DNA from: Blumeriella jaapii
Lineage: Eukaryota; Ascomycota; Leotiomycetes; Helotiales; Drepanopezizaceae
DNA: 64,000 bases
Assembly (NCBI GenBank): GCA_009599575.1
Contig: VWND01000010.1
Span: 248,001 to 312,000, forward strand
Reading direction: 5' to 3'
Below the pieces are notes generated by a model. It was not told where the DNA came from. It ran no database searches and was given only the letters and a program-made list of their open reading frames with translations. Positions 5,817 to 53,275 of the stretch are shown piece after piece (the stretch's first letter is position 1; each line of letters starts with the position of its first letter). A program made the translations under genes and the position numbers.

Positions 5817-6833
5817 ATGGCAGGCATCAATGGCTTCGAAACCAACCGGCTGGCAAATCTCACACGGAACGGTGCCCTTCTCGATGCTCTGGGGGTGAAC
5901 CAGCAGGCCAAAATTATACAGGACGAGTCGAAGACAGCAGAGCCCTCGAAGAAAAGACGGAAGATCGAGAAGACGAAAATGGGCATGCCGGCCTCGCGTT
6001 CTTCTGCTCGGATCGCATCTGCGCCTTCGAGACCGACATATGACGAAGACGCGCTTTCCAACGTTCCCACAGGGACCAGAAAGCCTCGTTCTAAAGGGAA
6101 CCAGGTGGGCAGAAGAACTACGAACGGCATCCCGGTGAAGGCGGAGAAGGAAGAGGAGCCGGAAAAACACGAGATGTCTGCGAAAGAGATAGATGAGCTC
6201 CAACAGTCTTGGACCTCGTGGCAGCCAGCAGCTCCGGCCCCAACCCGTGACGAAGCCGGAGTGTTGCATTTCGAGACCCATCCAGACTTCACGCCGAATC
6301 GCACTCCCGAGGAAGTGCTCCGCGAGGGCTGTTTTGGCGGGTCATTCTTTCGGCCCCTCTACTCCAAGAACCTGGCCATCACCGTATCAGGTGATGATCG
6401 GGAGTTGCCCGCGGCGTGGACTGAAGGGCTCGAGGTCGAAACGTACCTCACTTCTCCTAACTACGAGCCAGAAGTGAACAAGTTCAAAGTGGCGTGCGGC
6501 CAGTCGATCGAGGAGTGGGAGTTGGCTGGCTGGATCAACCATGCGTATGATGTGCGAGGCTGGTTCCAGTGGTACTGTCGTTTCTACATGGGGAGGCGAT
6601 GTGAGGATGATGACAGGCAGGTTTCACGGTGGAAGAAGTGCGTCGGTGCAACGGGCAGATGGAGGAGGATGCTGTTGAAGAAGTACGTGAGCGCCGGCGT
6701 CAGGGATGTGTTTGACGATGGGGAAGACGAGGAGCAGGTAGAGGTCAGTCCTGTAATGCATCAGACGTGTCACCATTGGGCGTTCTGTGTCACCCAAGAG
6801 GTTCTGGACGAGTACTGGAAGACAGGCAAATGA
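5817..6833 (+). CDS. Conserved fungal protein, probable nuclear
   Basis: Intronless 338-aa protein; I do not recognise a named domain. Residues 7-26 read FETNRLANLTRNGALLDALG, which resembles the ExxRxxNIxRNxxLLxxLGL motif found near the N-terminus of several fungal chromatin and DNA-associated proteins, including the WD-repeat Cmr1/WDR76 type. A basic stretch (KKRRKIEK, about residues 45-52) looks like a nuclear localisation signal. The C-terminal half is rich in Trp, Tyr, Cys and Arg (for example GWFQWYCRFYMGRRCEDDD, then WKKCVGATGRWRR). It ends with HQTCHHWAF and a VLDEYW motif, which looks like a compact folded domain. Function is not known to me. The start at 5817 follows CAAG and is the first ATG of the frame. 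Confidence 0.75.
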   Translation: MAGINGFETNRLANLTRNGALLDALGVNQQAKIIQDESKTAEPSKKRRKIEKTKMGMPASRSSARIASAPSRPTYDEDALSNVPTGTRKPRSKGNQVGRRTTNGIPVKAEKEEEPEKHEMSAKEIDELQQSWTSWQPAAPAPTRDEAGVLHFETHPDFTPNRTPEEVLREGCFGGSFFRPLYSKNLAITVSGDDRELPAAWTEGLEVETYLTSPNYEPEVNKFKVACGQSIEEWELAGWINHAYDVRGWFQWYCRFYMGRRCEDDDRQVSRWKKCVGATGRWRRMLLKKYVSAGVRDVFDDGEDEEQVEVSPVMHQTCHHWAFCVTQEVLDEYWKTGK

Positions 6834-7316: not shown

Positions 7317-9397
7317 CTACTTCTCATCTGCATCTTTCGCGACTTCAGTAGCTTCGGTGGCCTTCTGGGACTTCTCAGACTTCTTCTTCATCTCCTCCTT
7401 TGCTGAAGACGTCTCGCCATTCTCCCCAGCCTCGGCCTCAGATCGTCCATCCTCACTGTCAACTTTCTCTACCTTGATCTTGACCTTGCTTGAATCGGAC
7501 TCCTCATCCTCCTCACTTTCGATCACAAATCTCTTTGCTCTGATCTTGGCGTTGACAGGCTCGGAATCCTCATCATCCTCACTCTCGACCACAACTTTCT
7601 TTGCCTTGGTCTTGACGACGACGGGCTCGGAATCCTCATCCTCGTCACTTACGACCACGACTTTCTTTGCCTTGGTCTTGACGATCACGGGCTCGGAATC
7701 CTCATCCTCCTCACTTTCGACCACAACTTTCTTGACCTTGATCTTGGGCTTGACGGGCTCGGAATCCTCATCCTCCTCACTCTCGACCACGACTTTCTTG
7801 ACCTTGATCTTGGGCTTGACGGGCTCGGAATCCTCATCCTCCTCACTTTCGACCACTCTCTTCCTCTTGTTTCGGGTTCCGCCGGTTTGTGGACGAGGCA
7901 AAACGGTCCCAGCCTTTGCGAAGACACTTGGACCAATCTGCTGCCAAAATTTCTCGTGCGAGATGTATCGGCGGCCTTGAGAATCGAAACGGAAGGGAAG
8001 AGCAGCGTGTCTGCCCTTCGCAGTCAGACCACAGAGCTTTGCCACGTCATCTTTGGTATATGATGCGCCTGGTGCCCAAGCCTTGCTCTCATTCTCGTCT
8101 AAGTAAGTTAGCTATGTTTGCTTATCAACAAGAAGTCTACGAGATCATCGTACCATCGGAACCCATCATAGGTGAATCGACTGCGACCTTTCCTGGCTTA
8201 GACTTTTTTACTATTGAAGAGACAGAGTTAGCCACTTCTGCTTCTCGAAGATAAGTGCGCGAGATCATCGTACCATCCGAACCCTTCATAGGTGAATCGA
8301 CTGCGACCTTTCCTGACCTAAGCTTCTTTGCTATTGAAGAAACAGAGTTAGCCATTCTTGCTTCTCGGAGAGAAATGCTCGAGATCATCGTACCATTGGA
8401 ACCCTTGATAGATGAACCATCGACGGCGACCTTTCCTGACTTGGGAGTCTTTGCTGCTGAAAAGACAGTTAGCAATTTTTGCTTTTCGGAAAGAAATGCG
8501 CGAGATCATCGTACCATCGGAACCCTTGATAGATGAACCCTCGACGGCGACCTTTCCTGACTTGGGAGTCTTTGCTGCTGAAAAGTTAGCCACTATTGCT
8601 TTCTCGGAGAAAAGTGCGCGAGATCATCGTACCATCGGAACCCTTGATAGGTGAATCCTCGACGGCGACCTTTCCTGGCTTAAGCTTCTTTTGCTGCTGA
8701 AAAGTTAGCCACTATTGCTTCTCGGAGAAAAGTGCGCGCGATCATCGTACCATCGGAACCCATCATAGGTGAATCCTCGACGGCGACCTTTCCTGGCTTG
8801 AGCTTCTTTGCTGCTGAAAAGTTAGCCACTATTGCTTCTCGGAGAAAAGTGCGCGCGATCATCGTACCATCGGAACCCATCATAGGTGTATCATTGATGG
8901 CGACCCATCCTGACTTGGAAGTCTTTACTGCTGAAAAGTTAGCCATTCTTGCTTCTCGGAGAGAAGTGCGCGCGATCATCGTACCATCGGAACCCTTGAT
9001 AGGTGTATCATCGACGGCGACCTTTCCTGGCTTGAGCTTCTTTACTGCTGAAGAGTTAGCCACTATTGCTTCTCGGAGAAAAGTGCGCGCGATCATCGTA
9101 CCATCGGAACCCATCATAGGTGAATCATCGGCGGCGACCTTTCCTGGCTTGGGCGTCTTCTCTACTGAAGAGACAGAGTTAGCCACTCTTGCTTCTCCGA
9201 GAGAAGTGCGCGAGATCATCTTACCTGACTCCTTCTTCTCAACCTGCTTCTTCCCGGAGATGCCACCCGATGGAGTCTCTGCTAAGGGGTGGAGTCAGTA
9301 CGTGAGAGCAAGTGACTGCGAAGGAACTTAGCGTACTGTCCTTGGCCAACCAGTCCTCATGTACACCACCAACTGGGGTCCTCTTGGTTCGGACCAT
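7317..9397 (-). CDS. Multi-exon low-complexity protein with nine tandem mini-exons
   Basis: I do not recognise the family. The model has exon 1 (9397-9337), exon 2 (9281-9225), nine tandem mini-exons (9164-9102, 9047-8985, 8930-8868, 8813-8751, 8696-8633, 8577-8515, 8456-8394, 8330-8274, 8210-8154) and a last exon (8098-7317). All eleven introns are 54-63 nt, phase 1, with GTACG or GTAAG donors and GCTAAC-type branch points; the first uses CTGAC. The mini-exons are 63 or 57 nt, so symmetric, except the fifth at 64 nt. Counting it as 63 gives 1455 nt and 484 aa; skipping it gives 463 aa. Each mini-exon encodes a 19-21-residue basic/Ser-Pro peptide containing KPGKVAV...SPMMGSD. The last exon holds a short possibly folded stretch (KLCGLTAKGRH ... 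YISHEKFWQQIG) and then six 22-aa acidic/basic repeats, ending in a Glu/Lys-rich tail. Nuclear localisation is likely from composition only. Transcript data are needed to fix the isoforms. Confidence 0.7.
7471..7866 (-). repeat. 66-bp coding minisatellite, six copies
   Basis: Six tandem 22-codon units in the last exon of the same gene, each alternating an acidic block (ESEEDEDSEP) with a basic block (KPKIKVKK). Copies 1-3 are close; copies 4-6 are increasingly diverged. Acidic Ser-Glu/Asp blocks of this kind are typical casein kinase 2 sites, which is inference. Confidence 0.9.
8099..9224 (-). repeat. Nine-copy tandem exon-plus-intron repeat (~117-120 bp)
   Basis: Each period contains a coding mini-exon followed by a complete intron: donor GTACGATGATC, a CTTCTCGGAGA-like middle, branch GGCTAAC and a pyrimidine-CAG or AATAG acceptor. 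Donor positions recur at 9101, 8984, 8867, 8750, 8632, 8514, 8393, 8273 and 8153. Central units are nearly identical in exon and intron alike, so whole units were duplicated recently. The copies nearest the 3' end of the gene (8330-8154) are shorter and more diverged. Confidence 0.9.
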
Positions 9398-9647
9398 TGT
9401 GTTAGTCTTCGCTCTTGTGCTGGGGGCTGTGGGTTGTGGGTTGTGGGTTGTGGGGTTGTAAGGAAGAAGGTTTCGTGGGGGGGGGAGGACGCCTTTTATG
9501 TGTGAAAACTGGGGTTGTGGGCGCTAGTCTGCGTAACTCATCACGGGGTTTAGCCCTATCTCTTATCTCTATTCGAAAGTTGCTTTCGAATTACTGAAGT
9601 TATTTAATTCGATATAAGGGTGGAGTTCGTCGAAAAAGACTTGATGT

Positions 9648-9903
9648 AAATGGCGGTTCGGCGTTGATGGAATGTCCCATCGATAAGCGAGTTTGTTTAC
9701 TTCGGCTTTGGGCAAGGTTTAGCGAAGCGGGTAACTAGCGTGTTCCGTTTTATGGCTCTGCTTTATCTTTTCTTTCTCGTAAGGCTTTTGTTAAAAATAA
9801 ATCAATAGGATTAATCCAGTGTAGGATTGTGAGAAGAAATTCGTATTAACAACAGTTCAGCGTTAGTAGGATAATTCATCGATAAGCGAGCTTGTTTACT
9901 CGG
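9648..9903. repeat. Pair of RIP-like diverged repeats
   Basis: Segments at about 9648-9707 and 9845-9903 align over about 60 bp around the shared core CATCGATAAGCGAG. Most mismatches are G/A or C/T transitions, as expected of RIP. Confidence 0.6.
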
Positions 9904-12370
9904 GTGTTTAAACGAGGACAATTAAAGCATTACTGTTGCGATCGAGATAGCCGTTAATAATTGTTAAATACTAACACAAAATAACTAGATTTCTTCGGGT
10001 TAGATCGAGATAGCTTATTAATAAAAACCAAACATAAAGTAACAAACCGATATATTCGCTTCAAAGTTTTCAATCTCCAGATTTTTCAAGCAGCTTATAT
10101 GCAAAACGTATAACATTAATCATATTGCACAAGCTATAAATGCAATTAAAACAAATGCATATAAGCCGTCCGAAGTTTATAAAACTTAACGATAACAATT
10201 AAGCTTGTTTGTCTCAAGGCTGACAAATCCGGTTTATCAAAGCAGCTACGTGTGTTTTTCACGCTTGTTGTACACAAATCAGAACACAAAAGTCAATCGA
10301 ACAATAGCATTGTTTACAACAAGTTCCGAGGCTGGTAGCTTCAACGAAACTCTGAGAAAAACAGCTCTGCTTCGCTATGACAATTTCAGCCGCATGGTTG
10401 AAGGCCCTACTGATTTCGCCAGCCGCGCTGTCTGGGTTGGCGTTGGCGGCGACGAGAGTGATCTCTGAAGTTGTGAGAGGAATATGGGAGAGATGGATAG
10501 ATTGTGTTGCTTGTGCCCGTCTTTTGCCGTCCACCTACAATAGTAGTTTGGTTTATCGAAGGGAAGATGCGTATAGAAATGCTAAGTATAGGTAGATGCG
10601 GTTAATCAAAATTAAGAACTGCAGATGTGGTGTTCCATTGTTTATCAGGCGGCGTGCTAATTCACCACCCGCCAATGTTATCGGAACGAACGCCCCTTCT
10701 CCAAGCGTCGTTATTGCTCTCGGTGGCTGTCACGAAAACTGAGAATGCTTGCGACTTTTTTGAAAATTTCGTCTTGTATTTCCATCTAGTATATTGGAAC
10801 GCGAGGTACAGGCATGTGATCGAAGTTCATCCACTTTTTGCTTCTGTTCGTGGCCCCTCCAAGGGCAATCCGGACTAAAGTTTGGGAGAGATCGGTGATG
10901 GTGAACGTCACTTCTTAGCAGGGGTGAAAGCGGAAGCATTTATGACGAGCGTGTTTTCGTAGACAGCCGGTGATGGTGAATGGTCGTCGAGCTCAACAGC
11001 TGGACAAGGCGCTTTTGCTTTCCAGCAGGAGGAGAGGGCTAGGGACTAGCTTCTTTCCTCAGAAACATGAAAACCTTCGAAACTGAATGTTTGGGAGTAT
11101 TCCCCACCATGTGATGTCGACAGTACCTTTTGCGATACATATTGGACTCAAGCATAGTGTTGTCAACGCTTTTAGGGGTGATGTCGGGCATACTGCATCA
11201 CAGAGACTTCGGAAATCCCCGTATCGCAACAATATTAAATCGTAGTACTTAGCTTATTTGGAATTCATCCCAGAACTTACTAACGGTATGGAAACGGCGT
11301 TATAGAACACCGGAGCAGGTCTTTTGGGCACAATAATATCAGAGGTCGAGAAGAAAATCTAAGGGTAAGTTCAAACAGTTGAGAGTCATAGAATTATAAG
11401 AAACGGCTATAAGAAAACATTGAGATGGATTAACCTGACCTAGCTTTAACAAGCTGATTGTAACTATCAGATGTGTGTTTTGTTCCGGTTCTCATATCAT
11501 AAAATGAATGGTCATCAGTAGAATAGCGCAGTCCGGAAAGAGCAGTAGCCAGTAGTAAAGTAAATGATTGAATTGGATAAACCGCTTTCGATGGGATTCT
11601 CACGCATTACAACAACAAAGCTGCTACTCTTTCTGTTCCTCACTATGCTGCGTTATAATGCTCTCAAAGCTATAACATTCCAACCAGAGCTGGGCTCACG
11701 CTTTTAATTCAAGGAACGAGCGAGTTGCTAGAGTCGACAGCAACTTCTGGCCTACAGATTAGCGGCGCGTTTAACCTGCCTCTTCTCCTCGACCCTACGT
11801 AGTCAAGGGAGAGCAGATGCCGCATTCACGATGAACATCGTTGAAGTAGTGGGACTTCTTGCAGAGCATGCTCTCCATCTTTGCCTTTATCTGACGTTGG
11901 GGATCGGGGCAGGTTTGAACTTGTTGTTAACACTCGTAGCCGCACTTTTATCGCTTCCAGATCACGATACATATTTGACTTGTTCTTAACTGGTATTCTT
12001 GATGGTTTCGTACGATTTGGGTCTTGTTATATGCTGAATATACAAGAAAGCCGAAGTATCTTACGTCGAAACAACTCGCGGCTTTTGAATTCTAGAACGT
12101 TTTATCTTAGAACTTAGAATCCCGTAGTCAATGCAAACCATCTACGGAACCTTCCGCTTCTTCTATTCTCTGACATGGCCCCGTATAATTAAAGTCAACG
12201 AGAATTGGAAAGTAGAAATCTCAGCCAACTAAATCAATTATCCGATTTTTCATTTTTACTCACTTCGCAAGCACGTCGCCATCTGTCGTGGCCTGGTGGC
12301 CTCAGGCTATTTATACATATACCAACCACCTTGCAAAGGAGGCATTTTCTTTTTTCCTTCCAGTAGCTTC

Positions 12371-51260: not shown

Positions 51261-52214
51261 GGGGCGAGGGTGTTTGTACAGATTTTGGGAAGGATGTTCA
51301 GGTGTAAGGCTGCTTTCTGGCTCGAGATGTATCATACGGTGTGTGGGTAGGACTGCGCGGGGAAACGCGTCGAGTGGGAGAATGTATGTGTATACACCAT
51401 CTCCAACGAAGAAAGTCACAGCTTTCCTTTCCTTCGCTCGCCATGTCACATCCAGGTACAGTAAGTCATCACAGAACACCAACCTGAGGGAGATGACCCA
51501 GCTAGCTTACGTTGACCAGCAGTGCGAATAAAAAAACACTGCTTCCTCGAACCTGTCCCGAGCAAAGCTGAACGGAAACGGTCTCGATCGTGGAGATATG
51601 ACAGTACAGTACCTGGTTGTACTGTAGGGAGGGGTTTGCTACTCCCGCCACATATACATACTTATAAGATACGTATATACGTACCCACATACGTATATAT
51701 ACAAATATACATACATACATACATGCATACCTACATACATACCTACATACATACCTACATACATACCTACATACATACATACCTACATACATACTAGGTA
51801 CATACATACCTACATGCAAACATACATACATACAAACAGTAAGCACAACCAACCAACCAACCAACCAACACCACTATAGGACGGAGGAAAAGCACACACA
51901 TATATATGGCTGGAAAACACGGTGTGTTACAGGACTGTACTATACATCCATTCACCCATCCATCCATCCATTCATCGATCCATCCATTCATCCATCCATC
52001 CATTCACCCACCACACCACCACCACCACCACCACAGCACAACACAGCAGCAAGCAGCAAGCACCACATCAATGACAGAAGATAAAGAAAGAGAGAGGGAG
52101 GGAGCATCTAAAGCTAAAGCTAAAGCTAATGCCAATGCTTTCCTTTCCTTTCCTTTCCTTTCCTTTCCTTTCCACCAGCAGATCCTCCTCCTCCTTCTCC
52201 TCCGTATCTGTCCA

Positions 52215-52450
52215 TTCCTCTCTTCTCCTCTCCTCTCCTCTCCCTCTCCTCTCCTCCTCCTCTCCTCTCCTCTCCTCTCCTCTCCTCTCCTCTCCTCTCC
52301 TCTCCTCTCCTCTCCTCTCCTCTCCTCTCCTCTCCTCTCCTCTCTCTCTCCTCTCCTCTCCTCTCCTCTCCTCTCCTCTCCTCTCCTCTCTCTCTCCTCT
52401 CCTCTCCTCTCCTCTCCTCTCCTCTCCTCTCCTCTCCTCTTCTCTTCTCT
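52215..52450. repeat. CCTCT pentanucleotide microsatellite
   Basis: About 45 copies of CTCTC/CCTCT with three short CTCTCTCTC interruptions. Pyrimidine-only on the plus strand. Confidence 0.95.
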
Positions 52451-52635
52451 TCTCTTTTTTATTCCCTCCGACTTGGCATTGTACAGTACAATACAGTAGG
52501 ATCTCGGTTGACAACCCGCACGATACATACACATGCAAATATTGTAAGTGTAGGTGTAGTGGTGGTGTTCCTGCAGTACAGACGGCGTGGTGTGGTATGA
52601 TGTGGTATGGTGTGGTGTGTATGCTTCCTTCTTCA

Positions 52636-52848
<213 letters not shown>

Positions 52849-53039
52849 CTACTGTACCATCCACTGTACCATCCACCGTACGGTACGGTACAAACAGTAC
52901 ATACAGTACACACAGTACATACAGTACAAACAGTACAGACAGTACATACAGTACATACAGTACAGAATACATACAGCACAGAAAGTACCTAAGTAGGTAC
53001 ATACCGTCAATAAACAGCACGTTTATCTCAAACACACCC

Positions 53040-53275
53040 AAATTTCCCCCCTACCCCAGTTCCCCCCTCTCCCTCTCTCCCTCCCTCTCCCCTCTCCCTC
53101 CATCTCCCTCTCCCCCCTCCCCCTCTCCCTCCCCCTCCCCTCCTCCTCCCCCCTCCTGTGCAACCTCCTCCTCCTCTCCCCCCCCCCCTCCTCCTCCTCC
53201 CCTCCCCCTCTCCTCCCCCCCCTCCTCCTCCTCCTCCCCTCCTGTGCACCCCCCCCCCCCCCCCCCCCCCCTCCA
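53040..53275. repeat. C-rich polypyrimidine tract
   Basis: About 235 bp that is almost entirely C and T on the plus strand, ending in a run of more than 20 C at about 53248-53270. The minus strand is therefore G/A-only with long G runs. Confidence 0.9.

Follow-up and report, generated by a model that had tools for sequence, protein, structure and literature searches.

Nine tandem intron–exon cassettes in a predicted gene of a Helotiales-type ascomycete

We identified, on the minus strand of a 64,000-nt window (the whole stretch of DNA analysed), a predicted gene with an ATG at 9397 and a stop codon ending at 7317, in which nine cassettes, each consisting of one intron and one mini-exon and measuring 117–123 bp, follow one another in the interval bounded by a donor at 9224 and by the last exon, which starts at 8098. 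We favour, with moderate confidence, the reading that a founder segment was duplicated to nine copies, that cassettes exchanged sequence, and that the introns would be spliced out singly from the transcript of a gene without detected relatives. The neighbouring gene (5817–6830) encodes a protein 75% identical to a protein of Drepanopeziza brunnea (Helotiales, Leotiomycetes) and 67–71% identical to proteins of Cadophora, Diplocarpon, Rhynchosporium and Oculimacula; judged from these protein matches, the host is a Helotiales-type ascomycete. Genome searches covered 47.4 Mb in 91 contigs.

Gene model and splice signals

A preliminary description of this DNA had proposed nine exon-plus-intron cassettes in tandem at 8099..9224. 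The present analysis bears out the array itself: TRF reports an array at 8140–9225 with a period of 117, 9.1 copies and a score of 1310, far above chance, ten donor-like sites can be aligned along the minus strand, and the ends 8099 and 9224 coincide with the outer intron ends of our gene model. The six-copy minisatellite placed in the last exon by the same description is recovered by TRF with a unit of 66 bp. The features of the model are as follows.

9337–9397, minus strand: exon 1, 61 nt, ATG at 9397 (gene model)
9282–9336, minus strand: intron 1, 55 nt, GTACGC...TTAG, without similarity to the array introns (gene model, comparison)
9225–9281, minus strand: exon 2, 57 nt (gene model)
9102–9224, minus strand: cassette 1, intron 9224–9165 (60 nt, donor GTAAGATG), mini-exon 9164–9102 (63 nt)
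8985–9101, minus strand: cassette 2, intron 9101–9048 (54 nt), mini-exon 9047–8985 (63 nt)
8868–8984, minus strand: cassette 3, intron 8984–8931 (54 nt), mini-exon 8930–8868 (63 nt)
8751–8867, minus strand: cassette 4, intron 8867–8814 (54 nt), mini-exon 8813–8751 (63 nt)
8633–8750, minus strand: cassette 5, intron 8750–8697 (54 nt), mini-exon 8696–8633 (64 nt, frame-breaking)
8515–8632, minus strand: cassette 6, intron 8632–8578 (55 nt), mini-exon 8577–8515 (63 nt)
8394–8514, minus strand: cassette 7, intron 8514–8457 (58 nt), mini-exon 8456–8394 (63 nt)
8274–8393, minus strand: cassette 8, intron 8393–8331 (63 nt), mini-exon 8330–8274 (57 nt)
8154–8273, minus strand: cassette 9, intron 8273–8211 (63 nt), mini-exon 8210–8154 (57 nt)
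8099–8153, minus strand: last intron, 55 nt, diverged homologue of the cassette introns, with three in-frame stops
7317–8098, minus strand: last exon, 782 nt, with the stop codon
7460–7856, minus strand: six copies of an intron-free 66-bp repeat unit (22 residues), within the last exon (TRF)

On the minus strand, the ten donor-like sites, GTA(C/A)GATGATC, lie at 9224, 9101, 8984, 8867, 8750, 8632, 8514, 8393, 8273 and 8153; the first has the sequence given above and the remaining nine read GTACGATG. Cassettes start with GTACGATGATC, except for cassette 1, which starts with GTAAGATGATC. GCTAAC follows every donor, the first AG is found 8–17 nt past the branch A, and seven of the nine cassettes carry tandem NAGNAG acceptors. 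The donor, branch point and acceptor previously proposed for every unit are present in sequence, whereas the accompanying mini-exon length of 57–63 nt applies to eight of the nine cassettes: taking the first AG after the branch point as acceptor, the lengths are, in order, 63, 63, 63, 63, 64, 63, 63, 57 and 57 nt.

The open frame of the last exon spans 264 codons and contains a single ATG, near the frame end, and must be joined by splicing across intron 8153–8099. The last exon lies behind a stop-bearing intron with a cassette donor, so a real gene must use this type of site in at least one place. Exon-plus-intron cassettes are the best gene model, with the use of the individual splice sites predicted.

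Just ahead of the ATG, in what is presumably the 5′ leader, TRF finds a 7-bp repeat (GGGTTGT) in five copies at 9424–9459. An A+T-rich interval upstream of the gene (9560–10350) contains the phrase CGATAAGCGAG(T/C)TTGTTTAC twice (9681 and 9880) and might be a decayed repeat. At 52183–53243, the window holds ~1 kb of dense simple repeats (TCCTC, TACTGGACT and CCCTCT arrays; TRF).

Reading frame, coding character and donor strength

The mini-exons had been described as symmetric throughout, with any donor–acceptor pair keeping the frame. Neither generalization survives: eight of the nine are symmetric, the fifth (8696–8633, 64 nt) shifts the frame to a stop, and a protein that includes cassette 5 terminates at AKEA-stop, so that the nine do not constitute freely combinable cassette exons. 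We enumerated the inclusion patterns and found 256 of 512 open, all of them without cassette 5 and encoding 299 to 463 residues, and none of the 256 patterns with cassette 5; isoforms that keep every mini-exon are open in 0 of 1024 cases over all combinations of intron retention. The intron needed to skip cassette 5 measures 173 nt. Seven of the ten array introns are multiples of three in length and stop-free in the entering frame, and much of the array is therefore also readable unspliced; in Yarrowia, such introns are under-represented, according to an excerpt of PMC2911113. When cassette 5 is skipped and each of the eight other introns may be either retained or removed, 64 of 256 patterns are open, corresponding to every combination of the six remaining introns of this type. 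Free donor-to-acceptor choice, likewise part of the earlier proposal, is unlikely because splice variation in fungi is dominated by retained introns and cassette exons are rare (PMC2397502, in excerpt); for Sclerotinia sclerotiorum, also of the Helotiales, the excerpt counts 9 cassette exons, while retained introns number 210 or 419 depending on which of two ways of counting is used. Differences in protein length, if they occur, would be attributable to strain-to-strain changes in copy number or to in-frame retention of introns more probably than to the choice of splice sites.

Cassettes 5 and 6 each have their extra base in an A-run, and that of cassette 5 may be an assembly error. A wider assembly artefact, in which the copy number is wrong or a base error sits in the A-run of cassette 5, draws on the general observation that tandem arrays assemble badly (PMC6868369, in excerpt). 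We give it a very small chance: a base error would cure the problem of cassette 5 and no other, and because a mean difference of 0.11 in introns and 0.15 in exons separates the nine units, the array is not one pile of reads copied over.

The same sequence could in principle be read without splicing, as a coding minisatellite whose units have 39 residues and in which the putative introns are ordinary coding sequence. Units 2–4 measure exactly 117 bp (39 codons), the seven stop-free introns do not interrupt such a frame, two open frames on the minus strand (204 and 122 codons) cross the array, and the donor hexamer is weak. Against this, cassettes 5–7 measure 118, 118 and 121 bp and break the frame (two of these three length changes lie within introns), so that the units are not multiples of three throughout and do not form one open frame; and the three stops of the last intron leave the last exon reachable only by splicing. 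Mean codon scores are +0.12 for the mini-exons, +0.13 for exons 1 and 2 and +0.20 for the last exon, compared with −0.09 when six 3n introns are read through; windows of 20 codons score +0.15 when drawn from long ORFs and −0.07 when random and stop-free, with all these values within ~1 s.d. of the random windows (s.d. 0.24 for 20 codons) and the nine copies not independent. The mini-exons score close to long ORFs and the read-through codons like random sequence, and pN/pS in the read-through frame is 4.7. Owing to the non-independence of the copies and the wide spread of random windows, the codon evidence for the spliced reading is weak; taken together with the frame, we regard the unspliced minisatellite as distinctly unlikely. 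A plus-strand frame at 8684–9331, open for 215 codons through about five cassettes, was considered as a gene and rejected, its codon score being near zero.

We determined donor strength from genomic counts of donor hexamers at intron spacing. GTACGA gave 98 matches, 15 inside the array and 83 outside; the latter compare with 68 at far spacing (1.2-fold), and the backward-pattern control gave 212 against the 98 forward matches, i.e., no excess. GTAAGT, by comparison, gave 359 matches at intron spacing versus 78 at far spacing (4.6-fold) and 144 in the backward control. The local count of GTACGA is small (2 upstream versus 4 in the control). The cassette donor GTACGA is a weak donor in this genome, which counts against efficient splicing, and retention of introns is linked to weak splice sites (PMC2397502, in excerpt).

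Weak donors also bear on a further alternative, in which the array is spliced in a gene that is decaying or non-functional and is a mutational by-product without a selected role. The frame-breaking cassette 5 and the lack of a homologue in our searches are consistent with decay, as is the mini-exon pN/pS, which is 1.20 in the coding frame and 0.66 and 1.61 in the two wrong frames, and from which purifying selection on the mini-exon peptide is not visible. The 178 mini-exon codons outside cassette 5 nonetheless contain no stop in the coding frame, although the copies share ancestry, and the 782-nt last exon is open with coding-like codon use. Approximately 4.5% of single changes of cassette 4 create a stop. 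The last-exon repeats have a pN/pS of 0.69 in frame, a value equalled in one wrong frame (with 14 stops) and thus non-discriminating. We consider decay rather unlikely.

Cassette history and searches beyond the array

Adjacent copies share intron and exon sequence alike, as is expected of tandem multiplication. The mean difference among the nine aligned cassettes is 0.108 for introns and 0.151 for mini-exons, a contrast that is not significant (permutation p = 0.13); within introns, the mean pairwise difference rises from the donor (0.02) through the branch–acceptor stretch (0.11) to the intron core (0.13). We compared the last intron (8153–8099) with cassette introns 1, 4, 8 and 9, and in each case 0 of 500 shuffles aligned as well; the donor start and CTAAC are kept. 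On this comparison with four of the nine, the last intron is a diverged homologue of the cassette introns, and intron 1 is not.

The cassettes are mosaics. The four-gamete test is failed by 82 of 153 pairs of informative columns, intron and exon distances are barely correlated (r = 0.20, p = 0.19), and cassette 6 combines the intron type of cassettes 4–5 with the exon type of cassette 7. Distance along the array shows a weak relation to intron distance (r = 0.36, p = 0.03) and none that is significant to exon distance (r = 0.12, p = 0.26). Short exchanges between cassettes would explain the conflict between intron and exon histories, to which recurrent mutation could add.

An origin of the mini-exons from exon 2 or from the start of the last exon was discarded, with no similarity in the three mini-exons tried. 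One of 12 comparisons between mini-exons and other exons looked strong (p = 0.002), and a codon-permutation test of mini-exon against last-exon repeat gave p = 0.04 for DNA and 0.09 for protein; kinship between the mini-exon peptide and the 22-residue repeat is possible but unproven. The six acidic/basic units of that repeat (7460–7856) are free of indels.

Searches of the genome with the unit (10 matches) and the intron (6 matches) hit the array and no other place in the 47.4 Mb. For arrays of the same kind, we surveyed three branch motifs in a row at three spacings: 16 matches at 101–131 bp, 8 of them in this array (backward control 34), 8 at 132–162 bp (control 22) and 11 at 70–100 bp (control 96), with no excess over the control at any of the three. 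All three surveys also matched a repeat-like stretch with several ACTAAC motifs at G000:C17:523354-523822. Introner-like elements inserted repeatedly into one gene would likewise give near-identical introns in a fungus, but the intervening exons have been copied too, and all genomic matches of the unit and of the intron fall within the array; the probability of this origin is close to nil.

Protein searches with the 463-residue spliced model without cassette 5 covered the 7990 candidates with the most shared words, a large part of which are probably low-complexity, and returned no match at E ≤ 0.001; residues 202–278 gave 21 candidates and none at E ≤ 1. In Pfam, the first 214 residues have a single, sub-threshold match (E = 0.3); the last exon has no match there, and no PDB relative of it was found. 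AlphaFold on the last exon alone yields a mean pLDDT of 40.7 and is uninformative. Judged by its composition, with K/P/S/D-rich mini-exon units followed by acidic/basic last-exon repeats, the protein is probably disordered and possibly nuclear.

Proposed mechanism and relation to known systems

We propose that unequal crossing-over or slippage multiplied a pre-existing segment, made up of a short intron and a mini-exon, into nine tandem copies, that the array would have grown by unequal exchange, and that later exchange took place between cassettes. The spliceosome most likely excises each 54–63-nt intron separately, by intron definition, and the ordinary product would be a chain of ~20-residue K/P/S/D-rich units followed by the last exon with its six 22-residue repeats. 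Repeat number and protein length would change mainly by gain or loss of whole cassettes at the DNA level; as each intron moves with its exon, the frame is kept. Variation in splicing should chiefly take the form of retention, with the local frame kept open for seven of the ten introns. As for cassette 5, which breaks the frame as assembled, either it is skipped, there is a fault in this copy or in its sequence, or gene function is being lost. In a more elaborate version of this scheme, which we regard as highly unlikely, the array is a three-state repeat: each cassette is (i) spliced in (~20 residues), (ii) skipped or (iii) intron-retaining (18–21 additional in-frame residues, e.g., GTMIARTFLREAIVANFS). 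The weak GTACGA donors and tandem NAGNAG acceptors would then grade retention, splicing efficiency would set how long a disordered protein is and what it is composed of, with no nonsense-mediated decay being triggered, and cassette 5 would be a poison unit that switches the transcript off.

Internal gene duplication that multiplies a pre-existing intron is documented for Arabidopsis TCH3 and by Gao & Lynch 2009, both as cited in PMC4974935. As in those cases, going by that citation, a whole intron and its adjoining exon have been copied in tandem within one gene; unlike them, the present array consists of nine ~117-bp micro-cassettes in an ascomycete, with 54–63-nt introns that are mostly readable in frame and one cassette that breaks it. 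The array would in principle belong with this class, as an extreme form of it. Tandem repeats giving rise to introns are described for fission yeast in an excerpt of PMC3629103. A new fungal intron made of 24-nt repeat units with cryptic splice sites, as excerpted, shares the link between tandem repeat and intron; here, in contrast, every unit contains a complete intron and the intron and exon sequences are unrelated. The latter point also separates the array from the Rogers model (as given in PMC4974935), in which duplication of an exonic segment gives rise to an intron: cassette 4, the one cassette compared, shows no similarity between its intron and its exon (p = 0.78). Introner-like elements, as portrayed in an excerpt of PMC4457414, share the near-identical introns in a fungus but are spread over many unrelated genes, whereas no copies of the present intron were found outside this gene. 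Among the accessible portions of open-access articles retrieved with a limited set of terms, we found no fungal gene with an intron in every tandem-repeat unit.

Expansion of units likewise lengthens the repeat protein in intragenic coding minisatellites, such as the gene's own 66-bp last-exon repeat, but the array unit contains an intron, and mini-exon and last-exon units are doubtfully alike. Fibrillar collagen genes contain many small, symmetric, frame-neutral exons, each with its own intron. The array resembles them in its many small, mostly frame-neutral exons with individual introns and differs in that introns and exons are near-identical between units and the introns are very short.

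The locus offers a natural and compact test of the spliceosome, which is thought to pair sites across short introns and is here confronted with ten closely similar neighbouring introns. It would also test whether a repeat protein can, by virtue of the intron carried in each unit, change its length while the frame is kept. Finally, the seven stop-free 3n introns, which descend from one founder and represent one event, make the link between intron retention and decay directly testable.
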